NCBI GenBank assembly: GCA_002813105.2
Contig: CP017966.2
Span: 496,001 to 560,000, forward strand
Origin: Methanosarcinales archaeon Met12
GTDB lineage: Archaea > Halobacteriota > UBA148 > JAJOKI01
Direction: 5' to 3'
DNA: 64,000 nucleotides
Numbering within the stretch: the first letter of the stretch is position 1; every line of letters starts with the position of its first letter. A program made the translations under genes and the position numbers. Positions 3,566 to 55,531 of the stretch are shown here, one piece after another. Under the pieces are notes generated by a model. That model was given only the letters and a program-made list of their open reading frames with translations, made no database searches and was not told the DNA's origin.

Positions 3566-4432
3566 ATGTCACTATACCATGACGAGAGTGGTGTTGCCGT
3601 TATAGTCGGCACACTGATATTAATTCTGATTACAATAACCGCAGCATCCGGTCTTGCGCTTATAGTCTCAGAGTTACAGGGAGATGAGATGGCGCGAAAA
3701 GAGCGTATAGCCGCTGTAGAAGGTGAGAACCTTCGGGTCGTCTCAATCGACCACGTCCAACATATTGCCACACGCCCCCGATTGGGCCTGATCAATATAA
3801 CCATTCATAATCTCGATATCAGCCCCTCGCGTATAATCGGGATTGCCCTGAACGATGGGCGGGTCATAAACTTCACTGCCAAGGATGAGGCGGGCATTTT
3901 TATAACTACAGGGGGAGCTAACGAGATATTCAATTTCACAAATAGATTATCGATTCCCGGTGGAGGGGCAAGGACGGCGCATATAAATCTGACTTGCCCG
4001 AACAACTTCACAACAGGAACCAAAATCGCCAATAATGAGACTTTTGTGATTGAGGTGATGACCTCGCACATAAATATATTCAGACGGGCTTTCGCGCCGC
4101 CCGTGCCGCTTGCAGAGGTTAGATTCGAGACCGAACGCATAGTGGCTGCCAATGGCAACGTCACCCTCCGCGATTTCCTTATACTGGATGCGTCGAGGTC
4201 GTTTGACCCTGACCATGGTGACTTCATTACGGCATATAGGTGGGCGGTGTGGAATAACACTAATGAACTGATATATGATTACAACCTGACCGGGAGGATG
4301 GTAAGACCTATGAACCTTAACCTGACAACAGCCCAGAATATAAGAATAGACCTTGAAATAGATGATAACACAGGCATGACATCAAAACTCAGCCAGCGAT
4401 CCGGGAATATCACCATTCTGAATCGACCCTGA
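3566..4432 (+). CDS. Archaeal type IV pilin-like protein with an extracellular beta domain
   Basis: This 288-residue protein has a class III (type IV pilin) N-terminus. A short charged segment MSLYHDESG is followed by a hydrophobic helix VAVIVGTLILILITITAAS, as in the archaeal pilin/DUF1628 family cleaved by PibD-type peptidases. The rest is Asn- and Thr-rich, likely extracellular beta structure, and its last 100 residues resemble PKD/Ig-type domains (LDASRSFDPDHGDFITAYRW). The upstream TTG at 3542 is in frame, but the ATG at 3566 gives the usual short pre-sequence. It lies 1.4 kb from the pilin-tagged PstS and could be a co-assembled or structural pilin. That link is inference. Confidence 0.75.
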   Translation: MSLYHDESGVAVIVGTLILILITITAASGLALIVSELQGDEMARKERIAAVEGENLRVVSIDHVQHIATRPRLGLINITIHNLDISPSRIIGIALNDGRVINFTAKDEAGIFITTGGANEIFNFTNRLSIPGGGARTAHINLTCPNNFTTGTKIANNETFVIEVMTSHINIFRRAFAPPVPLAEVRFETERIVAANGNVTLRDFLILDASRSFDPDHGDFITAYRWAVWNNTNELIYDYNLTGRMVRPMNLNLTTAQNIRIDLEIDDNTGMTSKLSQRSGNITILNRP

Positions 4433-4455
4433 AAACAAATTAAAAATGGATTAAC

Positions 4456-4635
4456 ATGACATTATGCAAAGCATGTGGTGGCAGGGGGTTCGTTCTAATC
4501 GAAGAAAATAACTGCGCCAAGATAACAGAAAAGTGCGGGGCGTGCGGCGGTCATGGAGATGTCGAGGAATGCAGAATCTGCGGTTCGTTCGGTGTAGATG
4601 GCGGCATGTGCCGGAAATGTGCAGAGATTTGCTGA
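4456..4635 (+). CDS. Small cysteine-rich zinc-binding protein, DnaJ-finger-like
   Basis: This 59-residue protein carries four CxxC knuckles: CKACGGRG at 4-11, CGACGGHG at 27-34, CRIC at 39-42 and CRKC at 52-55. The first two are CxxCxGxG units like those of the DnaJ central domain. It should bind two zinc ions. No other domain is present and I do not recognise a specific family. It follows the pilin-like gene by 23 nt on the same strand. Comparable small proteins are common in methanogens, and their roles are mostly unknown. Confidence 0.7.
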   Translation: MTLCKACGGRGFVLIEENNCAKITEKCGACGGHGDVEECRICGSFGVDGGMCRKCAEIC

Positions 4636-4645
4636 GCTGATTGAG

Positions 4646-4825
4646 TCAGAATGTCTCGCATCGACTTCTATATAGGACATATACGGTCAGGAAATATGCA
4701 AAGAGAGCTGCGAAGACGAGGGGGATGGCCAGATTGAAGAGCGGGGATGGCGCATACCAGCAAGCAGCGTAGAATGTATACAGCGATAGTATCGTTGCAA
4801 CCAGCATACTGACGATGGCTTTCAT
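4646..4825 (-). CDS. Small membrane protein, two helices
   Basis: This predicted 59-residue protein has two hydrophobic segments: IVSMLVATILSLYTFYAACW (about 4-23) and LAIPLVFAALFAYFLTVYVL (about 32-51). It ends in a short basic tail. Coding support comes from the clean start, the hydrophobic pattern and the fit between neighbouring genes. I do not recognise a family. It lies downstream of the membrane-protein gene at 4900-5358 on the same strand and may belong to its transcript. Confidence 0.5.
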   Translation of the reverse strand: MKAIVSMLVATILSLYTFYAACWYAPSPLFNLAIPLVFAALFAYFLTVYVLYRSRCETF

Positions 4826-4862
4826 GATAATGACTTTATCCTATCCCCTGATAAATCTTGCG

Positions 4863-4888
4863 CATATAGACTATATAGAGATATATAG
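4863..4888. repeat. TATATAG-rich element, related copy
   Basis: CATATAGACTATATAG followed by AGATATATAG resembles the left part of the element at 6862-6900 and the one at 5574-5612. It lies just after the stop of the leftward membrane-protein gene. A looser copy (TATATAGGACTATATAG) sits at 3466-3482 in the tail of glyS, upstream of the pilin-like gene. The clustering in 3.4-6.9 kb suggests a shared regulator or dispersed repeat. Confidence 0.4.
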
Positions 4889-4899
4889 AAACAAGGCGG

Positions 4900-5358
4900 T
4901 CATGCCCGTTTGAGTATCTCATATCCAAAAACTGCAATCGTGAACATGACGGATATCAGTGAGAGTGCAAGCACCATATTCGAGTAGGATGGGGACATGA
5001 CATACCACGACATCCCGCCAAGAACGTGCACAATACTCGTCAACAGGATGACGGCAACGCCGATATAATACATTTCAGAAGCCGTAAGAAGTTTCAGTAC
5101 AATATAGCCGACGGCATAGTAAAAGAACATCGTAAATACCAGATATGGAATCACGATGTCGTGTCGGATGGCGTGTGTCAGGAGTGGGCTATGTTCGTAC
5201 TTAAGTATCATCTCGATGCTGCCGGCAAAGTAGAACGTGAGGGCATAGTCAATGGCGACTGCGGCGCAAAGAACGAGCGGGACGACCTTGTAATTGTGAT
5301 AAATTGATTGCAAGCCATGTGATATTCGCTGCATTGGATTCACCATTATATTTGACAT
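4900..5358 (-). CDS. Integral membrane protein, four helices, unknown function
   Basis: This 152-residue protein has about four membrane segments, near 24-44, 68-90, 95-117 and 126-147. It is rich in Tyr, Val and Leu and has few charges. The pattern, beginning with LVLCAAVAIDYALTFYFAGS, recalls small archaeal membrane proteins of the DUF5658 type, but I cannot assign it firmly. There is no enzymatic motif. The gene is divergent from pstS and separated from it by the repeat array and leader. Its transcript would run left through the small membrane-protein gene at 4646-4825. Confidence 0.7.
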   Translation of the reverse strand: MSNIMVNPMQRISHGLQSIYHNYKVVPLVLCAAVAIDYALTFYFAGSIEMILKYEHSPLLTHAIRHDIVIPYLVFTMFFYYAVGYIVLKLLTASEMYYIGVAVILLTSIVHVLGGMSWYVMSPSYSNMVLALSLISVMFTIAVFGYEILKRA

Positions 5359-5387
5359 GCTCTTCCCAATGGTATATGTTTGTATCC

Positions 5388-5566
5388 AAGCGGTTTATTC
5401 AAACCGCTTTATCCAAACGGTTTATCCAAACCGTTTTATCCAAACGGTTTATCCGAACCGTTTTATCCGAACGGTTTATCCGAACCGTTTTATCCAAGCG
5501 GTTTTGACCAAACCGTTTATTCAAACCGCTTATTCAAACCGTTTATTCAAACGGTTTTATCCAAAA
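5388..5566. repeat. Tandem array of 13-14 bp units with alternating inverted cores
   Basis: About 13 units of 13-14 bp follow each other, of the form AAACGGTTTATCC or AAACCGTTTTATCC with small variants (GAACCG, AAGCGG, TTC for TCC). The cores AAACGGTTT and AAACCGTTT are reverse complements, so many adjacent units can pair into short hairpins or present alternating protein sites. The two unit lengths leave all three rightward frames open, so the ORFs over it are by-products. The array lies between a leftward membrane-protein gene and the pstS promoter. Confidence 0.9.
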
Positions 5567-5582
5567 GCCACATCTATATAGG

Positions 5583-5612
5583 CTATATAGGTCTCAATAG
5601 TATATATAGGTG
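5583..5612. repeat. 30-bp perfect repeat, copy 1 (upstream of pstS)
   Basis: This 30-bp block runs from CTATATAGG through TCTCAATAG to TATATATAGGTG. It recurs without mismatch at 6871-6900, upstream of pstC. It is preceded by a further CTATATAGG at 5574-5582. Two exact copies, each placed before a phosphate-transport gene, suggest an operator for a shared transcription factor. A mobile repeat is the alternative. Confidence 0.75.
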
Positions 5613-5644
5613 CTATAGATGTATCAATATACTATTTGCACAAC

Positions 5645-5777
5645 CTATATATAGGGGCAATCCCAATCATCATTCAGAGTAGTCTAGATTTAGTAGATGC
5701 TATAAGGCTGCTCTGAATGTCAGAGTGTGCATGTCCTACACGATTCTGGACATCTTGAAGACGGTTTGCTCACTCTG
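5645..5777 (+). promoter_or_regulatory. pstS promoter candidate and structured 5' leader
   Basis: A TATA-like element CCTATATATAGG lies at 5645-5656. Downstream are two stem-loops. The first pairs 5671-5682 (CATTCAGAGTAG) with 5708-5719 (CTGCTCTGAATG), 12 bp with one G-U. The second pairs CAGAGTG at 5721-5727 with CACTCTG at 5771-5777, enclosing a smaller GTCC/GGAC stem. If transcription starts about 25 nt after the TATA element, the leader would be some 130 nt. That is long for an archaeon and could be regulatory. I do not recognise a known riboswitch. Confidence 0.45.
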
Positions 5778-5812
5778 GCTAACGGCATAAAAACACAATA
5801 GGTGAATAGAAA

Positions 5813-6751
5813 ATGAGAAACACAATAGAAAAAATAGGAGCAGGAATTAAAAACCTGTTCAATGGATTGATAGAGGACACGCAAGCTGTGTCTCCCGTCA
5901 TGGCAACGCTCGTTCTCATTGTCGTAGCGATCACAGGAGCTGCAGCAGTTGGAACAATGACAGGGGCATTCAGCGATGACGTGGGAAGACAAATAGATGC
6001 AGGCGATGCGGCGATACCAGCAGGAAGACTTATCATCGCAGGCAGCACGACAGTGCAGCCGGTGACGGAGCGGCTCGCAGAGGCATTCATGAGAGAGAAC
6101 CCAGGCGTTAGGGCAACCGTGCAGGGCGGAGGCTCCGGTGCAGGCATAACCTCAACCGCAATGGATGTCGTAGACATCGGTGGGGTATCAAGAAATGTTA
6201 CTCCCGCGGAGTTGGCGAGGCACCCGAACCTCAGAACGGTTCAGATTGGACGAAGCATAGTCGTCGTGATTGCGGGTAGCGGTATTAATCTGACGGATTT
6301 GAACAATATCACTATAGCTGACTTGAGAGATCTGTACCAGAACGGTACCATCCGCCTCAATAGTACTGTCCCTGCAGGCATAACAGCAGCTACAACATTC
6401 AGGAGAGCAGACACATCAGGTACTGAAGACTCCTTTGCTGCGATGCTCGGAATTAGGGCAGACCAAATCAATGGGACTATATCGGGCAGGACAGGCAATG
6501 CGGGCGTACTTGCAGCAGTACAAGCCACACCAATTTCCATAGGCTTCGTTGACATAGGATTCGCTGAAGGCGCTCCAATACGCACCATCACAATATCCAC
6601 AAACGCAACCCTACGGGCGGACCGCCCACTGAACCTCCTCACGAATGGTGCGCCATCCGCACTTGAGCAGGCATTCATTGATTTTGCGAGACTGCCAGGT
6701 TCGATTCAGCACTTCCGTGATGTCGGAATGAGATCAATGTTTTGCAGATAG
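5813..6751 (+). CDS. pstS: Phosphate-binding protein PstS with a type IV pilin N-terminus
   Basis: This 312-residue protein combines two parts. Residues 1-55 are a class III signal: an amphipathic lead, then EDTQAVSPVMATLVL (21-35) and a hydrophobic helix to about 53, as in archaeal pilins. Residues 71-312 are a PstS-type periplasmic-binding domain with GSTTVQPV (77-84), GGGSGAGIT and VDIGGVSR (phosphate loops) and the DTSGTEDSF segment of the second lobe. PstS proteins normally have a lipoprotein or Sec signal. Here the pilin helix would anchor the protein or allow assembly into a filament. It is followed by a terminator hairpin, then pstC, pstA and pilus-type secretion genes. The fusion is seen directly. 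Assembly is inference. Confidence 0.88.
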   Translation: MRNTIEKIGAGIKNLFNGLIEDTQAVSPVMATLVLIVVAITGAAAVGTMTGAFSDDVGRQIDAGDAAIPAGRLIIAGSTTVQPVTERLAEAFMRENPGVRATVQGGGSGAGITSTAMDVVDIGGVSRNVTPAELARHPNLRTVQIGRSIVVVIAGSGINLTDLNNITIADLRDLYQNGTIRLNSTVPAGITAATTFRRADTSGTEDSFAAMLGIRADQINGTISGRTGNAGVLAAVQATPISIGFVDIGFAEGAPIRTITISTNATLRADRPLNLLTNGAPSALEQAFIDFARLPGSIQHFRDVGMRSMFCR

Positions 6752-6789
6752 CCTAGAGACAGCCACACACAAAAACCATAAACTGAATT

Positions 6790-6833
6790 GATTTGTGCCT
6801 TCGGGCACAAATCTACCCCTTTTTTATTTTTTT
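6790..6833 (+). terminator. Hairpin plus T-tract after pstS
   Basis: A perfect 10-bp stem GATTTGTGCC / GGCACAAATC closes a TTCG tetraloop at 6790-6813 and is followed within a few bases by a T-rich run to about 6833. It lies 39 nt after the pstS stop. It probably ends or attenuates the pstS transcript, which would give more PstS than permease. Confidence 0.75.
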
Positions 6834-6870
6834 GACCTTGTTTTGATTGTCAGCCATGTGCATATATAGA

Positions 6871-6900
6871 CTATATAGGTCTCAATAGTATATATAGGTG
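6871..6900. repeat. 30-bp perfect repeat, copy 2 (upstream of pstC)
   Basis: Identical to 5583-5612 over 30 bp and again preceded by a TATATAGACTATATAGG-type stretch (from 6862). It lies about 30 nt upstream of the TATA palindrome of the pstC transcript, where an archaeal activator or repressor could act. Confidence 0.75.
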
Positions 6901-6930
6901 ATAACACATCAATTGCGTAATCTGCCATAA

Positions 6931-6944
6931 AGTTATATATAACT
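6931..6944 (+). promoter_or_regulatory. Palindromic TATA box for the pstC operon
   Basis: AGTTATATATAACT is a perfect 14-bp palindrome with a TATA-box core. It lies about 40 nt before the small ORF at 6975 and about 90 nt before pstC. A start site near 6965-6970 would give a nearly leaderless small ORF. This is assigned by position and sequence only. Confidence 0.5.
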
Positions 6945-6974
6945 AATTACCACATATCCAATGGCAGGGTATTT

Positions 6975-7034
6975 ATGAGAGATAATCTGAAGAAGATTGT
7001 GAAGGACGTGGAGAGGGGGATGATGAGGCGATGA
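6975..7034 (+). CDS. Short 19-codon leader ORF coupled to pstC
   Basis: This ATG-initiated ORF encodes MRDNLKKIVKDVERGMMRR and ends in an ATGA overlap with the pstC start. The product is very basic with no recognisable domain. Its position directly after the TATA box, the stop-start overlap, and AGGGGGATGATGAGG in front of pstC suggest translational coupling rather than a functional peptide. It could also be noncoding leader. Confidence 0.35.
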   Translation: MRDNLKKIVKDVERGMMRR

Positions 7035-8044
7035 AGGGACTCTCTTGGAAATTGCCGGAGAAGATAGGGCATATGATAAGGCATATCAGATTGCCGGAGA
7101 GCATAAGGCATATCAACTTCCAGTCAGGGATTCCGCACCTGTTCTTTCTTGCATCCGTGCTTTTGGTGGCAATTATCACCCTATTCTTCGTCGCATTCAT
7201 ACTCTACACAGCGCTCCCTGTCTTCAAAAGCGAGGGGCTGATAAACTTCATCACTGGCACAAGGTGGTCTTATTACGAGGGAGTCTATGGAATCAGGCTG
7301 TTCATCATCGGAACGCTCATAATGACCTGCGTCACCCTGATGCTTGCCGTCCCTGTGAGCGTCTTCACCGCGATGCTCCTCGCGGAGTTTGCGCCCCCCC
7401 GCGTGGCATCGGCTCTGCGCCCCCTCATCGAACTTTTGGTAGGGATTCCATCGGTGGTATATGGCATCCTCGGGTTCTTCGTGCTCGAAAACGTATTTCG
7501 GCACCATGTCGACCCGTTTTTATGCGCCGCGCTTGGCTCATTCATCCCGTTCTTCCGTGATGTCGATCCAAACAGCGGCTCAGGCATCCTGCTCGCAGCC
7601 ACGGTACTTGCGGTGATGGTCCTTCCGACGATTACCTCGATATCCGAGGATGTTATACGCTCTGTTCCATCAAAATACAGAGAGGCATCGTTTGCGCTCG
7701 GCGCCACCAGATGGGAGACCATGAAGAAGGTGGTGCTTCCCATATCATCAAGCGGCATCCTTACGGCAACCATCATCGGAATGCTGCGTGCGATGGGGGA
7801 GGCGACCGCAGTGGTGATGCTGGTCGGGAATGCCGCGAAGGTTCCGGCCTCGATTACGGATACGGCATATCCGATGACTGCAAAGATTTTAAACGAGATT
7901 TGCTACTATGTCGCGATGGATGAGCCGCGAAGCGCGCTCTTTGGGGTTGCGGCGGTTCTTTTTGCGATGCAGTTCTTCTTCGTATGCGCCATGAGATTGG
8001 TTGGAGGCTGGGACAGGATTCGCCTTAGCACGCGCCCCAATTAA
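7031..8044 (+). CDS. pstC: Phosphate ABC transporter permease PstC
   Basis: This 337-residue inner permease subunit of the high-affinity phosphate importer has a basic N-terminal tail of about 35 residues, followed by six or more membrane helices. The ABC-permease EAA loop is present near residues 225-250, with ALGATRWETMKKVVLP, and is followed by GMLRAMGEATAVVMLVGN, a typical PstC segment. GIPSVVYGILGFFVL near 140-154 also matches the family. It pairs with PstA 19 nt downstream. No pstB ATPase gene is found in this window, so energising the transporter would need one encoded elsewhere. Confidence 0.93.
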   Translation: MKGLSWKLPEKIGHMIRHIRLPESIRHINFQSGIPHLFFLASVLLVAIITLFFVAFILYTALPVFKSEGLINFITGTRWSYYEGVYGIRLFIIGTLIMTCVTLMLAVPVSVFTAMLLAEFAPPRVASALRPLIELLVGIPSVVYGILGFFVLENVFRHHVDPFLCAALGSFIPFFRDVDPNSGSGILLAATVLAVMVLPTITSISEDVIRSVPSKYREASFALGATRWETMKKVVLPISSSGILTATIIGMLRAMGEATAVVMLVGNAAKVPASITDTAYPMTAKILNEICYYVAMDEPRSALFGVAAVLFAMQFFFVCAMRLVGGWDRIRLSTRPN

Positions 8045-8063
8045 GATTTCTTAGAGGATTACC

Positions 8064-8960
8064 ATGAACTATCGAAAACTCGAAGAGCGAATCTGTATAA
8101 TGATATCCTGGGCTGCGGCAGCGGTCGCCTTGCTCGCACTCACCATAATCCTCGGAACGATTACATGGGAGGCGCTGCCAAGTTTGAGCATCTACTTTAT
8201 GGTCACGCCCGAGTCCGATGTGCCTGGCCTCGGCGGCGGAGTTGCAAATGCGATTGCTGGCACATTCCTGCTTGCGGTCCTGTCGACTGCGTTTGCAGCG
8301 CCGCTTGCGTTGGGAACTGCGATATACCTCAAACGCTATACAAAAAGCGGAGCCTTTGTGAACGCCATGAATTTCTTGCTCGATGTGCTCGCAGGCACGC
8401 CCTCAATTGTGCTCGGCGTCTTCGGGCTTTTTTTCCTCGTCTTTTACATGAAGCACATAACCGGGGGGTTCTCGCTGTTTGCGGCAACAATCGCACTTGT
8501 CCTTGTGGTGCTGCCTGTAATCGAGCGCGCGACGGAAACGGCAATAGATTCGGTTCCGGCAGAGATTGAGGAGGGGAGCTATGCACTCGGCGCAACAAAA
8601 TGGGAAACGCTGCGGCATATAACGATTCCATATGCATCCGTCGGAATGATAACAGGCGTAATACTTGGCATCGGAAGAGCTGTCGAACAATCTGCAGTAG
8701 TATTGCTTACTGCGGGCTACACCCAGTTTCTGCCGGAGTTCAAAATACTTCCGTCCGAGGTGCTTATATTTGGCATTGAAATACGCCCATTACAGGATTT
8801 GGTCGCAGCACTTCCAATCACGGTGTTCCGCTCGTTCTCGCAGCCGCACCTCACCCCGGCATCAGACGGATTCGGAGCGGCCTTTGCACTGGTACTCATC
8901 ATGATACTGCTTAATGCAACCATACGGATACTTATTCGATGGAGGGGGCAGGTTGGCTAA
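8064..8960 (+). CDS. pstA: Phosphate ABC transporter permease PstA
   Basis: This 298-residue partner permease of PstC has six predicted membrane helices. Its EAA loop YALGATKWETLRHITIP (about 172-188) is preceded by VPAEIEEG and followed by GIGRAVEQSAVVLLTAGY, the PstA counterpart of the PstC segment. GTPSIVLGVFGLFFLVF (about 112-128) matches the conserved helix. The last codons overlap the likely TTG start of the secretion ATPase (TTGGCTAA), tying the transporter to the pilus-type genes in one operon. In most genomes pstB would follow at this place. Confidence 0.93.
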   Translation: MNYRKLEERICIMISWAAAAVALLALTIILGTITWEALPSLSIYFMVTPESDVPGLGGGVANAIAGTFLLAVLSTAFAAPLALGTAIYLKRYTKSGAFVNAMNFLLDVLAGTPSIVLGVFGLFFLVFYMKHITGGFSLFAATIALVLVVLPVIERATETAIDSVPAEIEEGSYALGATKWETLRHITIPYASVGMITGVILGIGRAVEQSAVVLLTAGYTQFLPEFKILPSEVLIFGIEIRPLQDLVAALPITVFRSFSQPHLTPASDGFGAAFALVLIMILLNATIRILIRWRGQVG

Positions 8961-10749
8961 TTTCAGATTAAAACCAAAGAGGGGGCCTGCCGATCGGACT
9001 GAAGATGACGCTGTGAAACCAGCAAAGTCGGCGGATAGACTCAAATCGATGCTCCGGAAGGTGTCATCACTCCCTATACAAGACCGTATCGAGCGGCATC
9101 TGATGCCGCATCTTAAGGGGGCGGGCAGATTTGAGCTCGGTGGATTCTGTCTGGATGACATACGGAAGCGAATCGAGCAGCATTTAACGCCGGAGAGCAA
9201 ACCCATCGAAGCCCTTGACTTTGGAGTGGGTGAGGTGTCGACTCCGATGCCGGGGGTTCCGCTGCGAGATGTAAATGTCACCTATGCAGTTAGCCCCCCG
9301 TTCCAGTATGTGAACGTTCGTTTTGAGGGAGACGAGCTGGTCTATCATACAGTAGAGCCTTTACTGAGCGATGATGAATTGAAGTGTCTGAAGGTCATCG
9401 AAAACGCATTTGAAAAGATGATTCACTCAAAACTGGTGATAGTTGGGCATAAGGGCCGTGAAGAATACATAAGAGACAGATTTTCGATGATTGTCGATAT
9501 ATATGCGCTTAATTTAGACCATTTTCAGAAGGAAAAACTGTTCTACCACCTCCTGAAGACGTACATCGGATTTGGCAGGGTAGATATCCCGATGAAGGAC
9601 CCCTACCTCGAGGAGATTCACTGCAACGGACCGGGCACCAATATATATGTCTACCACAGGATATATGGCTCGATACGAACCAATATTGTGTTTGGGGAGG
9701 TGGAGCTGAGCAATTTCGTGATGAGGATTGCTCAGACCGCCGGCAGGCACATCTCGGTGCTTCAGCCGATACGGGATGCGACGTTACCGGATGGAAGCCG
9801 TGTTAACATCACCCTCGGGCAAGAGGTTACAAGAAAGGGGTCTACCTTCACAGTCAGGCGTTTCAGGACAAACCCGGTCTCTCCGATCGACCTTATCCAA
9901 TACGGAACCTTTGATTCAAGACAACTTGCATATCTCTGGATTGTCCTTGAATACAAACGGTCGGTGCTGGCGGCTGGCGGGACCGCGTCCGGAAAAACCA
10001 CAACCCTCAACGCCCTCTGCGCCTTCATACGCCCGGAATACAAAATCGTGTCAATCGAGGATACGGCAGAGTTGAACCTGATGCATCCGAACTGGACGCA
10101 ATCGGTCACAAGAACGGGGTTCGGTGGAGGCGCGACCAAAGAGGGAGGCGGTACGGGCAGGGACAAATTGGCAGGCGACGTGGACCTCTATGACCTGCTC
10201 GTGGCTGCGCTCAGACAGCGTCCGGAGTATATTGTGGTCGGCGAGGTGCGGGGGTCAGAGGCTTTCACGCTCTTCCATGCAATTTCGGTGGGACACCCAT
10301 GTCTCGGCACGATTCATGCGGGGTCGATGAAAGAACTTCTCTCGAGGGTCGAGTCGAAACCGATGGACGTTTCCAGAAATTTGTTTTCGAATGTGGACCT
10401 CGTAATCTTCAACTCGCTGATAAAGCAGGGAGAGCATTACATAAGAAGGAGTACACGTATCGTTGAGGTCATTGAGGTCGACCAGGACCGCGGAGACTTA
10501 ATCACAAATCCTGTCTTCAAATGGGACCCGGTTTCTGATGCATTCATACACGGGGGAAGTTACACCCTATTTACAGGTATACGGGACGAGTTCGGGGTAA
10601 AAGAAGAGCAGCTTTTAAATGAATTGAATGACCGGGCAGAACTACTGGACAGGTTGGCTCAAAACAACATTACAGATTACGAGACCGTTGTAAACGCCAT
10701 ACGGAAGTATTCACGAGACAGGGATGCGATGATGGAGGGAGTGGGATGA
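8953..10749 (+). CDS. Type IV pilus/TadA-like secretion ATPase (GspE family)
   Basis: This hexameric motor-type ATPase of archaeal type IV pilus-like systems has about 598 residues. An N-terminal domain of some 250 residues is followed by the RecA-like core. It has a P-loop AAGGTASGKTTTLNAL near residue 340, SIEDTAELNL (Asp box), YIVVGEVRGSEAF (Walker B) and a His-box region HAISVGHPCLGTIHAGS. Codons from an ATG at 8914 are open, but GGAGGGGG at 8940-8947 lies just before TTG 8953 and that start avoids a long pstA overlap. The stop overlaps the next gene by 4 nt. It resembles ArlI and PilT-like motors and is not a PstB-type ABC ATPase. Confidence 0.9.
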   Translation: MANFRLKPKRGPADRTEDDAVKPAKSADRLKSMLRKVSSLPIQDRIERHLMPHLKGAGRFELGGFCLDDIRKRIEQHLTPESKPIEALDFGVGEVSTPMPGVPLRDVNVTYAVSPPFQYVNVRFEGDELVYHTVEPLLSDDELKCLKVIENAFEKMIHSKLVIVGHKGREEYIRDRFSMIVDIYALNLDHFQKEKLFYHLLKTYIGFGRVDIPMKDPYLEEIHCNGPGTNIYVYHRIYGSIRTNIVFGEVELSNFVMRIAQTAGRHISVLQPIRDATLPDGSRVNITLGQEVTRKGSTFTVRRFRTNPVSPIDLIQYGTFDSRQLAYLWIVLEYKRSVLAAGGTASGKTTTLNALCAFIRPEYKIVSIEDTAELNLMHPNWTQSVTRTGFGGGATKEGGGTGRDKLAGDVDLYDLLVAALRQRPEYIVVGEVRGSEAFTLFHAISVGHPCLGTIHAGSMKELLSRVESKPMDVSRNLFSNVDLVIFNSLIKQGEHYIRRSTRIVEVIEVDQDRGDLITNPVFKWDPVSDAFIHGGSYTLFTGIRDEFGVKEEQLLNELNDRAELLDRLAQNNITDYETVVNAIRKYSRDRDAMMEGVG

Positions 10750-11609
10750 AGCGCCTCGAACGTTACAAAGTGTTATGTTACCGTTTTGGGCGATATATCA
10801 ACATATCGCCGCAGGGGGATGTGGCGAAGTCATTGTATCGAGCCGACATCGAGATGGCGCCCGGCATGTTCATCTCGCTTGTATTTGTCACGACGGTTGT
10901 TGCGACGGTCACGATGCTCGTTTTATCGACAATTCTCTTCCGCAACTCACCTAACCCACTCATCTATATCGCGGGGTTGACTTTGCTCACCTTCGGGCTC
11001 GTACTCAGCGCATTCCCGTTCGCACTATACAACAGATCGTCTGAGAAGAAGATGGACATCGAGCGGGAGCTTCCATATGCACTTGGTTATATGTCAGTAC
11101 TTGCAAGTGCAGGGTCGTCACCGCTCGACATTATCAGAAGGATTGCCATCGAGGATTACGGCCATATATCAAAGGAGTTCGGAAAGGTCATCTACCGGGT
11201 CGATATTCTTGGAGAGGATGCCATCACGGCTATGAACGATTTGATACAGAATACGCCGTCCGAGATGTTTCGAGGCGTCTGCATCGATATTGCAAACATC
11301 ATGCACGTGGGCGGCGGACTTATGAGTTACCTTGAGGGGAAATCAAAAGACCTGATGACGATGCGGAGACAGGTCCAGAAGGAGTTCGTCGATTCGCTCT
11401 CGATTTATGGCGAAATATACCTCGGCGGCATTGTGATGAGTATTATAATTGCAATCCTCGGAATCGTGGTTGGGGGTGCGCTTGGCATAGATTTTGGCAT
11501 CTTCCCACCGCGAGACCTCTTTAACATCACCACCTATGGCATGCTGCCGTTTATTAACATATTATTTCTTACCATACTCTGGATGAAGTATTCGGGGAGC
11601 CCGACATGA
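10746..11609 (+). CDS. Type IV pilus assembly membrane protein, TadC/GspF/ArlJ family
   Basis: This 287-residue protein is the polytopic platform that partners a secretion ATPase. Two membrane helices lie near residues 38-60 and 70-93. A cytoplasmic helical domain with the GspF pattern follows, including ELPYALGYMSVLASAGSSP, and two further helices end the protein (about 222-248 and 262-282). The start overlaps the ATPase stop as ATGA, and its own stop overlaps the next gene in the same way. With the larger homologue downstream it probably forms a two-component platform, as in other archaeal pilus loci that carry two GspF-like proteins. Confidence 0.85.
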   Translation: MKRLERYKVLCYRFGRYINISPQGDVAKSLYRADIEMAPGMFISLVFVTTVVATVTMLVLSTILFRNSPNPLIYIAGLTLLTFGLVLSAFPFALYNRSSEKKMDIERELPYALGYMSVLASAGSSPLDIIRRIAIEDYGHISKEFGKVIYRVDILGEDAITAMNDLIQNTPSEMFRGVCIDIANIMHVGGGLMSYLEGKSKDLMTMRRQVQKEFVDSLSIYGEIYLGGIVMSIIIAILGIVVGGALGIDFGIFPPRDLFNITTYGMLPFINILFLTILWMKYSGSPT

Positions 11610-13591
11610 AAATAGAAAAGTTTCGCATGCACGCCGCCAGATACGTGCAGATAATAAGATTGAAATATGACATAAGGCGAGAGTATTTCACTGTGGCGAT
11701 TCCCGTAATCGCTGCGATCGTACTCCTCTGTGTGGCAGTGCTCATTGGCCATACTTTCCCCGCCATAGGAGAAACGAGAGATGAGGTCGATGATGCACGG
11801 CTTGCCGCGTTTGCGGAACTTGTGGCTGAGTTGGGTGAAGTCGAAGATGGTATGGACGTGGAGCAGATTGAAGTGCCCCAGAAGGACGAGGAGATAAAAA
11901 ATAATCTGGACCATATACTTGTATTTGCAGTCTTGGTTGCGATTATCCCGTATTCGGTCGATATGTACATCCAAAAGGGGCTTCTTAAAAAACGTGAAAT
12001 TGCATACAGTGGATTTCTATTCAAGCTGTCTGAACTGATGAGGGGCGGCATAGACCCGATCAGAGGGGTGATTGAACTCTCAAAGACCGGGCTTGGCGCA
12101 ATAACGGGAAGCATTAAGGGGGCGGCATCTGCCATGATTCTCGGGCACTCGTTTGCGGATGCGATGAATAATATGGCAGCCGCACAGAAGAGCGAGATAA
12201 TCAAAAAGTACACAGCCCTGGTGGTTCGGGCATCGTACGCTGGTGGTTCGGTCGCAGATATTGTGTTCAGAACGTCAGAGGATATGCGGACCGTAATCAG
12301 GATAGAGCAAGAAAAAGAGGGGGACCTGAAACAATACACAATTATATTTTATTTTGCGCAGGGAATCATCGTCATGCTGATGTATGTCCTCTCGACCTCG
12401 CTTCTTCCAATGATTGAGGGGGCGGGGATGGAGGTATTGTTAGGAGATGCGGGAGTGGCTGATATAGATTTTAGACTCGGATTCTTCCATATGATCATCA
12501 TGAACGCATTCTTTGGCGGCCTGATCATAGGCCAGATCACAGAGGGGCATATAAAACACGGATTAAAGCATTCCGCAGTCCTTATGATTGTGTGCTATGT
12601 TGCATCCACTGCTTTAATTCTCCCGGTACCGCCGGCAGAGGGCGATATTACGATTGAAGTGCTCTCGGGCGATGGGCAGGAAGGGATAACCGGAGTACCA
12701 CTCGAATATCCTATCGTCTTCATGGTCCGGGACCGGGATGGAGACCCAGCCCAGGATGTCCAGGTTAGTATTAACATATTGCCGGGCGGCAGTGTAGATC
12801 CGGATATCGTGAAGACCGGGCCGGATGGCAGGGCCACTGTAAATATTGTGCCTGGTTTAACAGAGGGCGTCTATGAAATCAAAGCCATATCTGGCATCGT
12901 GGAAGAGACGGCGACCGCCCACGTCAGATTCCCGGAAAGACCGATTATAGTGCCCCCCTTAGACCAGACACTCGAAGCAGGTGCCTTTGGAGTGATTGTA
13001 TGGAATATAACTGATGATAATCCTGATCAGTTCCGGGTATTGAGAGATGGGGAAACGGTCATGGGCCCCGCCCAGCTAATAGATCGGCCCTTGTTGGAGG
13101 GACTGTACTATCAACTCCGCTCCATTATGGGAGTCGCCCACCTTAGTAGTGTGAATATAAGCGTTCCAATAACTATCACAACACCCGGGGTCTGGAACTA
13201 CACAATCATCGCGAGCGATACAACGGGCAATACGACGGGTGATGAAGTGATGATAACAATCATAGATGTTACACCGCCAAAGGTAATTTCCAATCCAATA
13301 GGTTACCCGGGAATAGGTATGTGGGCTAAGAACGGGGATATAATCAGATTAAATGTAACCGTTATAGATGAACATTCTGGCGTCAGGGATGTGATAGTTA
13401 ACGTCTCAAGCATCAACGATACGATCAGGTACCTATCCTTAACACGGGTTGCTGAAACAGACCTATTCACAGCAGATATAATGGTCAATACGGTAGCCCC
13501 CTATAGAATAAGAGAGGCCATCATCATCGCTACAGATAAGGCGAAGAATGTGAACAATACGATGTCGTTCAGCATAGACATTCGATATTGA
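11606..13591 (+). CDS. TadC/GspF-like membrane protein fused to Ig-like domains
   Basis: In this 661-residue protein roughly the first 355 residues are a GspF-type platform. A membrane helix lies near 28-48, an acidic loop near 50-95 and a helix near 103-122. The helical domain includes SGFLFKLSELMRGGIDP, and several more helices run to about 350. Residues from about 357 to 661 form an extracellular-type beta region. Ig-like modules can be seen near 357-445 (PDGRATVNIVPGL), 448-560 (ITTPGVWNYTIIASDTTGN) and 560-661. The attachment would place these domains outside the cell. The fusion is unusual for a pilus platform. The coding frame shows no break at the junction. Confidence 0.82.
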   Translation: MKIEKFRMHAARYVQIIRLKYDIRREYFTVAIPVIAAIVLLCVAVLIGHTFPAIGETRDEVDDARLAAFAELVAELGEVEDGMDVEQIEVPQKDEEIKNNLDHILVFAVLVAIIPYSVDMYIQKGLLKKREIAYSGFLFKLSELMRGGIDPIRGVIELSKTGLGAITGSIKGAASAMILGHSFADAMNNMAAAQKSEIIKKYTALVVRASYAGGSVADIVFRTSEDMRTVIRIEQEKEGDLKQYTIIFYFAQGIIVMLMYVLSTSLLPMIEGAGMEVLLGDAGVADIDFRLGFFHMIIMNAFFGGLIIGQITEGHIKHGLKHSAVLMIVCYVASTALILPVPPAEGDITIEVLSGDGQEGITGVPLEYPIVFMVRDRDGDPAQDVQVSINILPGGSVDPDIVKTGPDGRATVNIVPGLTEGVYEIKAISGIVEETATAHVRFPERPIIVPPLDQTLEAGAFGVIVWNITDDNPDQFRVLRDGETVMGPAQLIDRPLLEGLYYQLRSIMGVAHLSSVNISVPITITTPGVWNYTIIASDTTGNTTGDEVMITIIDVTPPKVISNPIGYPGIGMWAKNGDIIRLNVTVIDEHSGVRDVIVNVSSINDTIRYLSLTRVAETDLFTADIMVNTVAPYRIREAIIIATDKAKNVNNTMSFSIDIRY

Positions 13592-13636
13592 GTTTGGTAC
13601 TAAGTTCAATAAAATGACCGCAATTATTAATTGCAG

Positions 13637-14311
13637 CTATCCAACCCGCTCTCTCGTATCGATGGATATGCCTTCACTTGTCATATGGTAGGGTATCATC
13701 CTTTCCGGGGGCAGAACGCCTTCCAGTTTTGGGATGTTGATGACCTTATTTATTTTATCTCCGGCGTATATGGTTCTGAATTGAATTATGCCGTCCACCA
13801 TCGACCTCATAATCCTTTCAGTCCTCTCAGGAAATACGCCCATATCCGCTGCCAGCAAAAACATTGTATCGCTGTGTCGACTTACATCGATAAAAGAATT
13901 GAGCATATCCACCACCATATGCGTCTCTACATCTATGAAGAGTGATGTGAGGGTGTCCACTATACAGAGGTCCACACCAGAGATGTTCTGCGGCGATGGG
14001 GCGACCAAAGGGTACAATTTCCGGCGTTTCGGAGTATCTTCGTAGCACATATCGAGCAGAGTTGTTCGGTCCTTAAAGTCTCCAAGTATCGTGAACATCT
14101 CCGAATTCCCATCCATTCCAAACGCCGACATCTGAGCGAGAACATCCTCTCTCGACCGCTTTGTTGAGATGTACAACACTGTTTTTCCAAGTTTTATCGA
14201 TTCAAATCCAATCCTTTGGATGAATATGCTCTTTATACTACCTAACTCCTCTTCAATCAATAATACGCCCTTTTGTAGAGTCGCTTCCAATCCAATGCTA
14301 GATAAGTCCAT
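13637..14311 (-). CDS. KaiC/ArlH-like RecA-fold ATPase homologue with degenerate P-loop
   Basis: This 224-residue protein has the KaiC-domain pattern: LIEEELGSIKSIFIQRI where the P-loop should be (about 17-33), then GKTVLYISTKRSREDV, a Walker B-like DLCIVDTLTSLF (about 115-126) and a C-terminal beta region. The expected G-x-x-G-x-G-K-[ST] reads E-E-L-G-S-I-K-S, so two glycines are lost while Lys and Ser stay. ATP hydrolysis is therefore doubtful. ArlH of the archaellum belongs to this fold and binds ArlI, so this could be a regulatory partner of the secretion ATPase encoded convergently. That role is inference. Confidence 0.72.
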   Translation of the reverse strand: MDLSSIGLEATLQKGVLLIEEELGSIKSIFIQRIGFESIKLGKTVLYISTKRSREDVLAQMSAFGMDGNSEMFTILGDFKDRTTLLDMCYEDTPKRRKLYPLVAPSPQNISGVDLCIVDTLTSLFIDVETHMVVDMLNSFIDVSRHSDTMFLLAADMGVFPERTERIMRSMVDGIIQFRTIYAGDKINKVINIPKLEGVLPPERMIPYHMTSEGISIDTRERVG

Positions 14312-14418: not shown

Positions 14419-16884
14419 ATGACCAAATATATATCGCATCCGCTGATAAAACCAAACGTAGTTGAAAAACGGTTGTATCAGTCCTCGCTCGCCAACGCCG
14501 CGCTGAACCGATCTTCACTGGTGGTGCTGCCCACTGGCCTGGGTAAAACGATCGTTGCGCTGTTAGTGATGGTCGCCAGACTTGAGAAGTATGGGGGCAG
14601 GGTCCTTGTGCTGGCTCCTACGAAACCCTTAGTAGAGCAACATGCTGCCTTTTTAAAATCTATGCTCAACGTACCAAGCCACAACATCCTGATGTTCACT
14701 GGTGAGACGTCTCCAGCGGAGAGGGCGGAGTTGTGGGCGGGCGGGTCCGTGGTCATTTCAACCCCGCAGGTGATCGAGAACGATTTGATGTGTGGGCGGG
14801 TGTGTTTGGATGACGTCGTTCTCATCGTATTTGACGAGGCTCACAGGGCGGTTGGTAATTATTCATACGTCTATATTGCTGAGAAGCATATGGGACAATC
14901 TCGGAGCCCGCTTGTCCTCGGTATAACTGCATCGCCTGGGGGAGGAGATACACAGATTGAGGAGGTTTGCCGAAATCTAAACATCGGGGGCGTCGAAGTT
15001 AGAACCGAATCTGACCTGGATGTGGTACCATATACGTATAAAAAAGATGTCGAATGGATATATGTCGACCTTCCAGATGAGATTCGGGACATAAGGGAGT
15101 TGGTCGACCACGTACTGCGCGACAGGTTGAATGAGTTGAGGCGGTTGGGCGTCGTCAGCTCAAAGCGTGCAGACCCCTCAAAGAGTGAGTTGCTTCAGTT
15201 GCAGAGTAACCTTCAATATCAATTGAAAAGAGCGCCACGGCCACAAGCATATAGGTCAATATCATTGCTGGCAGAGGTTTTTAAAATTAAACATGCCATG
15301 GACATGATCGAGACGCAAGGCATTTCTGCGCTCAAGAGGTATTTTGAGAGGCTCCAAAATGAGGCGCAATCGAGGGGGGGCAGCAAGGCAGCAAGGCGGC
15401 TGGTGGAGTGCGCCGATATCAAAATGGCAATGGGTTTGGCCAATGGCTGTGATGAGGAAAAACACCCGAAGCTGGATATAGTGAGGCAGATAGTCGAAGA
15501 GCAGATGCGCAGAAATCAAGATAGCAGGATAATCGTGTTTACGAACTTCAGGGATACCGCTGAATTGGTCACCGAATCGCTGGGCGGTTTGAAGGGCGTT
15601 CGACCTATCAAATTTGTCGGGCAGGCAAATAAATATAAAGATTGTGGCCTGAGCCAACGGAAACAGGTCGAGATCCTGCGGAACTTTAAAGATGGTGTGT
15701 ATAACGTGTTGGTCGGGACGTCGGTAGCAGAAGAGGGGTTGGATATACCCTCCACAAACCTTGTGGTGTTCTACGAGCCAGTGCCATCTGAAATTAGGAG
15801 TATTCAGCGACGGGGGAGGACTGGCAGGCGCGGAAGGGGGCGCGTGGTAGTGCTCATAACCAAGGGAACGAGGGACGAGGCATATTACTGGATGAGTAGG
15901 AGGGGGGAGAAGAATATGTATAAAAAAATACGTGGGTTGAAGAGTCGTTTTGAGGGTGTTAATGGTGGTGTTGGTTTTGAGGATGATTGGGGTGGGACCT
16001 TTGGGGGCGTTAAGAATGGGGTCGGTCAAGGTGCTACAGATGTGGATGTTGTGGGTACGTTGGATGCAGGTGCATCAGAGGTGGTGGCACAGAGACGGTT
16101 GAGTAGTTTTGGTGTTGATGGTGGTGCTTCAGGTAGTGCTAATGGTACTGGTACTGGTGCTATTGGTGCTTCAGGTAGTGCTAATGGTACTGGTGCTATT
16201 GGTACTGGTGGTGCTGTTGGTACTGGTAGGGTTGGTGGTGTTCGCGTATTCGTCGACCAACGCGAGATGCGCTCCGCCGTCGTAAAAGAACTGGAACGAT
16301 TGGGCGCTAGTATTGGGATAAAGACGCTGGAGGTTGGAGATTATGTGTTGAGCGATCGTGTTTGTGTTGAGAGGAAGACCGCTGAGGACTTTCTGTCATC
16401 GCTTGTAGATGGGGGGCGTGATCTTTTCGGTCAATTATCTGATTTGCGGAGGTGTTTTGACCGCCCGATATTGGTCATAGAGGGGGGCGAGCTCTACACA
16501 AGGCGCAGAATTCATCCAAATGCGATACGGGGGGCGCTTGGAGCGGTGGTGGTTGGTTTTGGTGTCCCCACCATCACAACAGAGGATGCGGGGGATACTG
16601 CTGCGTTTTTGTATGTCGTCGCAAAACAGGAGCAGGAAGGGGGTGGTCGGGTGCCAACCCTGCATGGTGGAAGGACGCCCCAGACGTTAAAAGAGCAACA
16701 AGAATATTTGGTATCGTCCATATCTAACATCGGACCGGTCATTGCCAGGCGCCTATTGCTCCACTTTGGCTCCGTCCAGAATGTAATGAGTGCATCCCAC
16801 GATGACTTGATGGCGGTTTTTGGCATAGGTCCCAAAACGGCTGCCAGAATACGGGAGGTCGTAGAGTCTGAATATAAGGAGTGA
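14419..16884 (+). CDS. hef: Hef helicase-nuclease (FANCM/XPF-like)
   Basis: Hef processes stalled replication forks by unwinding and cleaving fork structures. This 821-residue protein has a superfamily 2 helicase part with P-loop LPTGLGKTIV (37-46), DEAH box FDEAHRAVGNY (about 137) and helicase motif VI (IQRRGRTGRRGRG, about 463-475). Its XPF nuclease domain from about 610 has VDQRE and the ERK-x3-D motif in VERKTAEDF (about 649). A helix-hairpin-helix tail lies near 767-815 (NIGPVIARRL, FGIGPKTAARI). Residues about 508-608 are a Gly/Thr/Ala-rich low-complexity linker encoded by GGT-rich repeats, longer than I would expect. The gene lies next to a candidate origin. Confidence 0.93.
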   Translation: MTKYISHPLIKPNVVEKRLYQSSLANAALNRSSLVVLPTGLGKTIVALLVMVARLEKYGGRVLVLAPTKPLVEQHAAFLKSMLNVPSHNILMFTGETSPAERAELWAGGSVVISTPQVIENDLMCGRVCLDDVVLIVFDEAHRAVGNYSYVYIAEKHMGQSRSPLVLGITASPGGGDTQIEEVCRNLNIGGVEVRTESDLDVVPYTYKKDVEWIYVDLPDEIRDIRELVDHVLRDRLNELRRLGVVSSKRADPSKSELLQLQSNLQYQLKRAPRPQAYRSISLLAEVFKIKHAMDMIETQGISALKRYFERLQNEAQSRGGSKAARRLVECADIKMAMGLANGCDEEKHPKLDIVRQIVEEQMRRNQDSRIIVFTNFRDTAELVTESLGGLKGVRPIKFVGQANKYKDCGLSQRKQVEILRNFKDGVYNVLVGTSVAEEGLDIPSTNLVVFYEPVPSEIRSIQRRGRTGRRGRGRVVVLITKGTRDEAYYWMSRRGEKNMYKKIRGLKSRFEGVNGGVGFEDDWGGTFGGVKNGVGQGATDVDVVGTLDAGASEVVAQRRLSSFGVDGGASGSANGTGTGAIGASGSANGTGAIGTGGAVGTGRVGGVRVFVDQREMRSAVVKELERLGASIGIKTLEVGDYVLSDRVCVERKTAEDFLSSLVDGGRDLFGQLSDLRRCFDRPILVIEGGELYTRRRIHPNAIRGALGAVVVGFGVPTITTEDAGDTAAFLYVVAKQEQEGGGRVPTLHGGRTPQTLKEQQEYLVSSISNIGPVIARRLLLHFGSVQNVMSASHDDLMAVFGIGPKTAARIREVVESEYKE

Positions 16885-53959: not shown

Positions 53960-55531
53960 TCATTTTTCCTCATGCGAACGAACATCGATATTGATGCCAA
54001 GTTCCCTTTCAATCTTATCGATGATTTTGCCGCCCCGTCCGATAACTCTGGGGATGTCTCGCTGCTCAAGATAAACGATAACCCCCGAATCCGACCCCAT
54101 TGACACATCCACATGTCCACGCACGTATTTGCCAATCTCCCTGTAAACCTCCTTTTCTGCAAGCCGCCATGCAGGCTTAACCTGCGCCTCGACGGGCATT
54201 ACCACGACCTGGTCACCATACGTGTAAATTTCGTATTCCACTTCTTCCGTCTCAAAATCCAGCACCTCGATGACAGGGCGCGCCAAATCCTCTTCGAGCA
54301 TCCCAGCAGGGACTTTAACGGTAAATTTTATCTCATATACTTTGGAGACCACTCCCTTGTCGATGAACACTATCATATCGACGATTTGTGGAATGATGCC
54401 CAGTTCAACCCTTCCTATGAGCCGCTGGATGGCATCTATGGCCCCGGCGGAATGAACCACGCCGACCATTCCAACGCCAGCCAATCGCATATCTGTGAAT
54501 ACCTCGAAATCGGATGTCTTGCGCATCTCATCGTAAATCGTATAATCAGGTCTGACCAGCAGAAGAATATTCGCGGTATTCGCCATGTTGCCATCGAGGG
54601 GAGCATACTGGGTGATCTCGTCCGATACGGGCAGGTCGCGCGGGGATTCCATGGTTTTTACTATGTGCTCATGCGTTTGCAGGAACTCTGCCATGCTGGC
54701 GGCAAAGGTGGACTTTCCTGCACCAGGTGGACCCGCAATCAATACTCCCCTGTGCTTTTCAATCAATTTTGCTTTAAGTTCGTCACTTAGCCTATAGTCG
54801 TCCAGCCCGACCTTCGCAATAGGGCGCACTGCCGTGATTTCGATTCCGTCGGAAAATGGCGGGCGCGCTATCGCAATCCTCATCGAACCGAGCTGAATCA
54901 CAGTCGCTCCTTTTCTATCAAACTCGATAAAGCCATCCGGGTCCATCTTTGCCCTCTCGATGAGCTCACGCACCATATCACGCAATCCCTTTTCAGTGCA
55001 TGGCTCGTTTCCTATTTTCACCAGGCGCATTTTGCCGACAGTGCCCCTCTTTGCCATGGGGAGGACGCGATCCTTTAAATGCACTGACATTGTGTCATCC
55101 GTGAAAAAAGATTCGATTTGCAGCGGACCCATCTCTCTCTTTTCAGGATAAAGATAAATGACTTCCAGTCCCTTTGCCCTTGCAACATCCGATTGAACTA
55201 TATCGCTTGATATAAATACCGCATCATTTTGAATTGCCACAGCCCTGATTATAGAGTCGATCTCCCCTCCTGAGGATAGTTTAATCTGATCTAGCGTAGG
55301 GCGCTCACCCACATATTTTAATACGATTTTTTTCTTTTTCGCCAGTTCATTCAACTTTTTGAGTTCCTGCAGACCGTTAAAACCTATGTTCTTGCCCTGG
55401 TTTGCATGCGCCTCAAGTTCTGAGACCACCGCCTCCGGTATGATTACTTCGGCACCCTCAAACTCTCCGCTCTCTATTTTGGCGGTGATTCTGCCATCGA
55501 TGATTACGCTTGTATCTGGAACGAGTTTCAT
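53960..55531 (-). CDS. PIN-domain ATPase with KH domain (PINA type)
   Basis: This 523-residue protein has an N-terminal PIN nuclease domain with acidic residues in PDTSVIIDGR (5-14), GGEIDSIIRAVA and SSDIVQSDVA. A GspE/VirB11-like ATPase follows, with P-loop AGPPGAGKSTFAASMAEF (about 266-283) and RPDYTIYDEMRKTSDFEVF for Walker B. It ends with a KH RNA-binding motif PRVIGRGGKIIDKIER (about 496-511). The order PIN-ATPase-KH matches archaeal PINA proteins, for which branch-migration activity has been described. It starts alone from a leftward promoter and converges with the KaiC-like gene. Confidence 0.92.
   Translation of the reverse strand: MKLVPDTSVIIDGRITAKIESGEFEGAEVIIPEAVVSELEAHANQGKNIGFNGLQELKKLNELAKKKKIVLKYVGERPTLDQIKLSSGGEIDSIIRAVAIQNDAVFISSDIVQSDVARAKGLEVIYLYPEKREMGPLQIESFFTDDTMSVHLKDRVLPMAKRGTVGKMRLVKIGNEPCTEKGLRDMVRELIERAKMDPDGFIEFDRKGATVIQLGSMRIAIARPPFSDGIEITAVRPIAKVGLDDYRLSDELKAKLIEKHRGVLIAGPPGAGKSTFAASMAEFLQTHEHIVKTMESPRDLPVSDEITQYAPLDGNMANTANILLLVRPDYTIYDEMRKTSDFEVFTDMRLAGVGMVGVVHSAGAIDAIQRLIGRVELGIIPQIVDMIVFIDKGVVSKVYEIKFTVKVPAGMLEEDLARPVIEVLDFETEEVEYEIYTYGDQVVVMPVEAQVKPAWRLAEKEVYREIGKYVRGHVDVSMGSDSGVIVYLEQRDIPRVIGRGGKIIDKIERELGINIDVRSHEEK

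Follow-up and report, generated by a model that had tools for sequence, protein, structure and literature searches.

How should we read a gene for a phosphate-binding protein that begins like a pilin, lies with the genes of the phosphate permeases and has pilus assembly genes at the place where pstB, for the transport ATPase, is expected? This arrangement occurs in Methanosarcinales archaeon Met12, in a 64,000-nucleotide stretch (C1:496001-560000 of the single-contig, 1,067,436-bp archaeal genome; hereafter the window), and an initial annotation had proposed that the pilin-tagged PstS is placed in a filament or surface assembly comparable to the bindosome of Sulfolobus and feeds the permeases PstC and PstA. 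Our analysis makes it fairly probable that the cluster is a bindosome-like phosphate-uptake module, in which PstS would be a pilin-like subunit assembled by a GspE/TadC machine and feeding PstCA, with PstB provided from elsewhere.

The gene content pstC-pstA-gspE-tadC-tadC, first read from the letters alone, was borne out by profile matches (TIGR02138, TIGR00974, T2SSE and two T2SSF; Table 1), and so was the absence of pstB from the cluster, the gene being found about 100 kb away at C1:605338. The genes had been described as all overlapping by a few bases, which holds from pstA onward, where gspE, read from TTG 8953, overlaps pstA by 8 bases and both tadC joins are ATGA overlaps. It does not hold further upstream: 19 bp separate pstC from pstA, and pstS, which lies 279 bp ahead of pstC, forms a unit of its own, closed by a terminator-like hairpin. 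The longest gspE open reading frame (ORF) begins at 8914, and the most likely start is TTG 8953, where relatives begin with LAK or LAD. The conserved module (about 3566-14311) is also broader than the 5813-13591 originally outlined; four extra genes accompany it, also where gene order is shuffled, and encode a second pilin (pilinX), an ArlH-like protein and two membrane proteins of 152 and 59 amino acids (aa).

Because this linkage is conserved, a chance neighbourhood was rejected: the module recurs in dozens of genomes, with tagged PstS beside GspE/TadC as the initial annotation had suggested looking for. When 394 genomes of the phylum were searched with PstS, several families proved to have a tagged PstS with pstC and pstA after it. 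A GspE search left a gap in the scores: 25 genomes reached 579-1018 bits (58-100% identity), two more scored 490 and 473 bits, and all others stayed at or below 423. The pst-linked GspE adjoins pstA or pstC in all 25, and the arrangement is far from absent among relatives, being kept across five family-level groups (Methanosarcinaceae, Methanomicrobiaceae, Methanoregulaceae, ANME-1 of the anaerobic methanotrophic archaea, and the genus of Met12). Tagged PstS was detected in 24 of these genomes; in the other (G375) the contig stops right after pstC. In a tree built by a quick method, 32 pst-linked ATPases form one side of a branch (Shimodaira-Hasegawa-like approximate likelihood ratio test, 98), other GspE-type ATPases from the same genomes sit on the opposite side, and none of the 20 paralogous GspE loci examined contained pst genes. 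Conversely, of the 21 tagged PstS loci from named assemblies whose downstream sequence extends for at least 7 kb, 19 carry GspE; tagged loci with GspE include those of Methanolobus, Methanomethylovorans, metagenome-assembled genomes (MAGs) of Methanosarcinales, ANME-1 GoMg1, Methanofollis, Methanoculleus, Methanolinea and Methanoregula. Several Methanomicrobiales have the tadC pair upstream of pstS instead, the order being altered and the linkage retained. In most clusters tadC2 is followed by an ArlH-like homologue encoded on the other strand, and Methanolobus clusters are additionally flanked by genes with MazE/AbrB-like and PhoU domains.

Some loci show variants of their own. In the Methanolobus-type G375 a transposase-like insertion (L173:11485-12314; L numbers are our own locus labels) separates pstA from gspE, and Methanoregulaceae-type clusters contain a very long PstA ORF of 507-948 aa (L057:8783-11515, L059:8193-11039, L087:12676-14199). 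A 767-aa PstA-matching ORF between pstS and pstB in a Thermoplasmata MAG (L141:2423-4726) is probably a PstC-PstA fusion.

The pilin-type N-terminus reported for PstS was likewise confirmed. A short charged segment leads to MRNTIEKIGAGIKNLFNGLIEDTQA/VSPVMATLVLIVVAITGAAAVGTMTGAFS (TQA/VSPVMATLVLIVVAITGAAAVGTMTGAFS), an N-terminus of VSP type, and then to a PBP_like_2 domain of PstS type (E 2.6e-21). TIGR02537, the NCBIfam model of the archaellin/type IV pilin N-terminus, matches residues 24-53 just below its cut-off (17.4 bits against 20), and matches 9 of 22 aligned PstS relatives at E<=0.01. The slash marks the predicted cleavage by prepilin peptidase between A25 and V26, and one such peptidase (PF01478) was found in the genome. 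Among 21 full-length tagged PstS, mean pairwise identity was 85% in the helix (residues 26-55), 48.5% in the binding domain and 70% in the best 30-residue window of that domain. Across 29 genomes the helix (84%) was above the best 30-residue windows of PstC (73%), PstA (80%), TadC1 (83%) and TadC2 (81%), and the GspE core (92%) was the only compared stretch to reach its value. No part of PstS is as conserved as this helix, which would fit a constraint from subunit packing better than a plain anchor. An unassembled class III protein would remain membrane-bound via its helix, and an anchor is needed, given that these lineages have lipoproteins as their ordinary PstS; the pilin-like helix might then simply replace the lipid, with PstS monomeric beside PstCA and GspE/TadC merely placing or extracting it. 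We consider this anchor-only reading unlikely, as the helix is conserved well beyond what an anchor requires (the most conserved transmembrane windows in PstC and PstA reach at most 80%) and the tagged pstS gene comes with a dedicated assembly machine. The AlphaFold model of PstS is weak at residues 22-66, and no conclusion was therefore drawn from it there. Methanolobus-type genomes also carry a second pilin-tagged PstS-like paralogue, with a nearly identical pilin helix and a divergent domain, adjoining an AbrB-PhoU gene.

The fold predicted for pilinX, one helix (residues 7-53) plus beta domains, matches an archaeal type IV pilus and archaella, and its homologues lie within the same cluster in nearly all relatives, mostly downstream of tadC2, with the same position in a sister species of the genus (G001, deposited as 'Methanocellales archaeon isolate MAG-838'). 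This predicted fold suggests a genuine pilin, from which, or from other pilins, GspE/TadC might build ordinary pili, under phosphate control and for adhesion at times of phosphate scarcity, PstS being co-regulated but outside the assembly; in bacteria, phosphate status often governs adhesion. Such a reading appears quite improbable, because it leaves unexplained both the strongly conserved pilin helix on PstS itself and the tie of the ATPase branch to pstSCA rather than to other pilin sets.

The link of the cluster to phosphate is strong. By sequence and by fold, the closest solved relatives of tagged PstS are phosphate-binding proteins, and the motifs GST, GSGAG, DIG and RxxxSGT, known from PstS structures as phosphate contacts, are nearly invariant among tagged PstS; the score on TIGR02136 is 94.1 bits, below the cut-off of 206.6. 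PstC and PstA exceed their equivalog cut-offs, and the EAA coupling loops are kept in both. When at most one mismatch is allowed, the complete 1.07-Mb genome has only four copies of a 16-bp inverted repeat, TATATAGNCTATATAG, three in the cluster (before the 59-aa gene, pstS and pstC) and the fourth between an AbrB-PhoU gene and the ordinary pst operon; the reversed control pattern had no matches in the genome. All four places are conserved in the sister species, and a 39-bp version of the repeat is nearly identical upstream of pstS and pstC, with 0 expected by chance. By these sites, the pilin-tagged cluster and the ordinary pst locus share an operator, probably read by an AbrB-PhoU regulator. 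The terminator-like hairpin of pstS, present in the sister too, could allow more PstS to be produced than permease or motor protein, which is what a structural subunit would require. Just ahead of the pstS operator (5378-5565) there is an array of about seven 27-bp units of the AAACCGTTTTATCC type, with none at that place in the sister species.

The ordinary locus (L018) retains pstC, pstA, pstB and phoU, and its lipoprotein pstS (L018:5233-6044, C1 about 602232-603043) is broken, with a frame change and about 45 codons missing, including a stretch with two ligand motifs. In the corresponding locus of the sister (L024), pstS is truncated (L024:2017-2346), pstC and pstA are gone from the locus, and pstB and phoU remain; the tagged cluster is the only PstSCA detected in this fragmented, 76%-complete MAG. 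Given the broken or truncated ordinary pstS in each, both species appear to depend on the pilin-tagged PstS. A third PBP_like_2 protein, adjoining a permease and an ATPase, was rejected as a further intact PstS, as it matches TupA (tungstate) alone and below that model's cut-off. With EAA loops intact and no local pstB, PstB would be supplied from the ordinary locus; in the other genomes that carry the cluster, pstB matches above the cut-off lie apart from the tagged operon, mostly with one copy per genome. GspE as a stand-in for PstB was rejected on account of the intact EAA loops and the pstB retained elsewhere. The lack of pstB in the cluster might instead mean that PstS-PstC-PstA sense phosphate without transport, gating the pilus motor or the AbrB-PhoU regulators, whose genes flank the Methanolobus clusters; the bacterial PstSCAB-PhoU system doubles as a sensor. 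This seems very improbable to us, as the coupling loops are intact in both permeases and the sister's only detected PstSCA is in the cluster while pstB and phoU are retained. Nor was a PHO4 (Pit) transporter found in the Met12 genome, in which other phosphate carriers, for example of the Na/Pi type, were not searched for.

In the bindosome of Saccharolobus (Sulfolobus) solfataricus, class III sugar-binding proteins are combined with BasEF and BasABC (PMC4187195, PMC2910488), and the appendage has not yet been seen on cells (PMC4187195). The likeness lies in ATP-binding cassette (ABC) binding proteins with class III signals and an ATPase and platform of type IV pilus type, which there are needed for surface function and here are linked to the binding protein by gene position. 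The systems differ in substrate (sugars versus phosphate) and in composition: Bas has one platform (BasF), three small pilins (BasABC) and binding proteins described as separate, whereas the Met12 cluster has two TadC proteins, one larger pilin, an ArlH-like protein and pstS-pstCA together. Orthology of the ATPase to BasE was rejected (202 bits on NF053672 against a cut-off of 1000), and the machine may work like the bindosome but is not Bas. The initial interpretation is partly supported, namely in the phosphate role, the shared operators, the reliance on a distant pstB and the packing-like conservation of the helix; its physical side, with cleavage by the prepilin peptidase and assembly by this GspE/TadC pair, is inferred. 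Since a review already notes many class III binding proteins in euryarchaeotes (PMC4187195), the general idea is not new; what is new relative to the literature found is phosphate, the fixed PstCA linkage, the separate ATPase branch and the shared operators. As the initial annotation had supposed, no published phosphate bindosome was found in the open-access literature, an earlier description elsewhere being possible.

Components of an archaeal type IV pilus are all present (assembly ATPase, TadC platform, pilin and prepilin peptidase), and euryarchaeal systems share with Met12 an ATPase with two TadC proteins, pilins often nearby and one prepilin peptidase (PMC4858521). They differ in that the Met12-type ATPase is a separate branch tied to pstCA, and phosphate, PstS and ABC transporters are absent from the text of this 2016 census of archaeal pili. 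As in the archaellum, the ATPase scores best on the FlaI model and the KaiC-like protein on FlaH/ArlH, both below cut-off; unlike the archaellum, the cluster has two separate TadC proteins and a binding protein with permeases, and orthology to FlaI was rejected (402 bits on NF058587 against 550). PstSCAB-PhoU systems are matched by PstS, PstC and PstA in family and motifs and by PhoU-domain regulators nearby; the difference is that Met12 PstS has a pilin helix for the lipobox, with pilus assembly genes at the place of pstB. In M. mazei, ordinary pst genes are induced by phosphate starvation (PMC6864096). For Pseudomonas aeruginosa, PstS-bearing surface appendages under phosphate limitation are described (Zaborina 2008, as cited in PMC3195088). 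These are alike in having a surface phosphate-binding protein and differ in being bacterial. We know of no pilin helix on P. aeruginosa PstS and of no dedicated type IV pilus machine linked to it.

In the mechanism that we propose for the bindosome-like module, PstS would be inserted via its class III signal and trimmed by a PibD/FlaK-type peptidase, after which its hydrophobic helix would pack with other helices, perhaps those of pilinX, in a structure on the outer side of the membrane. This structure would be built by GspE, working on the two TadC platforms, and tuned by the ArlH-like protein, and the product may be a filament, a short pseudopilus or an array bound to the surface layer. The displayed PstS domains would capture phosphate and hand it over to PstCA, coupled to PstB made from the ordinary pst locus. 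Several points weigh against this reading. The QA/VSP cleavage site is a prediction from the motif, the domain of PstS, with about 250 residues, is bulky for a subunit of a filament, and pilinX could be the sole real filament subunit. Two tagged PstS loci (L101 and L121) have no GspE within 10 kb, and the sister genome is fragmented and incomplete. In the clusters checked from Methanolobus, M. acetivorans-like and ANME genomes, a search for the exact operator motif gave no match, and the operator is therefore evidence at the level of the genus.

In a bolder version, possible rather than probable, methanogens and ANME archaea starved of phosphate would form a filament, a 'phosphate pilus', with PstS as its main subunit, and this filament would belong to a wider class of binding-protein pili. 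Such a class is considered because in ANME-1-like genomes a sister branch of the GspE/TadC machine adjoins other pilin-tagged proteins (L174 and L175), one of them PstS-like. The pilin-tagged proteins of this kind seen in these genomes, some of them PstS-like, lie at L174:1205-2428, L175:1-778 and L075:3688-4479, and close to the one at L174 there is also an ABC transporter whose binding protein is lipoprotein-like.

Our analysis suggests that methane-cycling archaea build surface structures that harvest phosphate, which bears on how they cope with phosphate scarcity. The bindosome has hardly any parallel, and work on it has been confined to sugar uptake in S. solfataricus. If our reading is true, the Met12-type cluster would add a second example from another phylum, conserved, apparently independent and serving an inorganic nutrient, and would suggest that placing binding proteins in pilus-like assemblies is a recurring archaeal uptake strategy. 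It would also assign a function to one branch of archaeal pilus ATPases, and the occurrence of the cluster in cultured Methanolobus species makes it directly testable.

Table 1. Features of the pilin-tagged phosphate cluster (window positions unless a locus label is given)
Feature	Position	Strand	Remarks
pilinX (second pilin)	3566..4432	+	class III N-terminus and beta-sandwich domains
59-aa small membrane protein	4646..4825	-	homologues adjoin the 152-aa membrane protein in eight relatives; operator 38 bp upstream
Operator-like inverted repeat, copy 1 (CATATAGACTATATAG)	4863..4878	.	one of four genomic places; kept in G001 (L022:5524)
152-aa membrane protein	4900..5358	-	homologues in most clusters, e.g. 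L106:6869-7306; no match in Pfam or NCBIfam
Operator-like inverted repeat, copy 2, upstream of pstS	5574..5612	+	39-bp element in common with copy 3; kept in G001
Pilin-tagged phosphate-binding protein PstS	5813..6751	+	PBP_like_2 domain, pilin N-terminus
PstS pilin helix, residues 26-55	5888..5977	+	predicted prepilin-peptidase site A25/V26, from VSP motif
Terminator-like hairpin and T run after pstS	6790..6831 (hairpin 6790-6813)	+	RNA fold z-score -5.3; G001 has one too
Operator-like inverted repeat, copy 3, upstream of pstC	6862..6900	+	kept in G001 (L023:5871)
pstC permease	7031..8044	+	TIGR02138 280.8 bits (cut-off 196); EAA loop REASFALGATRWETMKKVVLP kept
pstA permease	8064..8960	+	TIGR00974 226.6 bits (cut-off 193); EAA loop EEGSYALGATKWETLRHITIP kept
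GspE/FlaI-family assembly ATPase	8953..10749	+	T2SSE E 2.2e-34; Walker motifs intact; pst-linked tree branch
TadC/FlaJ-like membrane platform 1	10746..11609	+	T2SSF E 7e-14
TadC/FlaJ-like membrane platform 2, C-terminal Ig-like extension	11606..13591	+	T2SSF E 6.8e-11; weak Big_1 match
ArlH/FlaH-like KaiC-family protein, degenerate P-loop	13637..14311	-	ArlH model 57.9 bits (cut-off 215)
Methanolobus-type second tagged PstS-like paralogue	L082:14856-15944, L085:2433-3608, L117:5781-6905, L073:9784-10920, L072:4750-5868		

Three further ORFs in the window were noted. A 59-aa cysteine-rich ORF, zinc-ribbon-like with CxxC repeats, lies between pilinX and the membrane-protein genes (4456-4635), and tandem repeats at 16122-16239 encode a low-complexity Gly/Thr/Ser/Ala linker within a Hef-like helicase/nuclease ORF. 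A separate weak T2SSE match (33 bits) was found on the minus strand at 53960-55531, in a stand-alone PilT/VirB11-like ATPase ORF.

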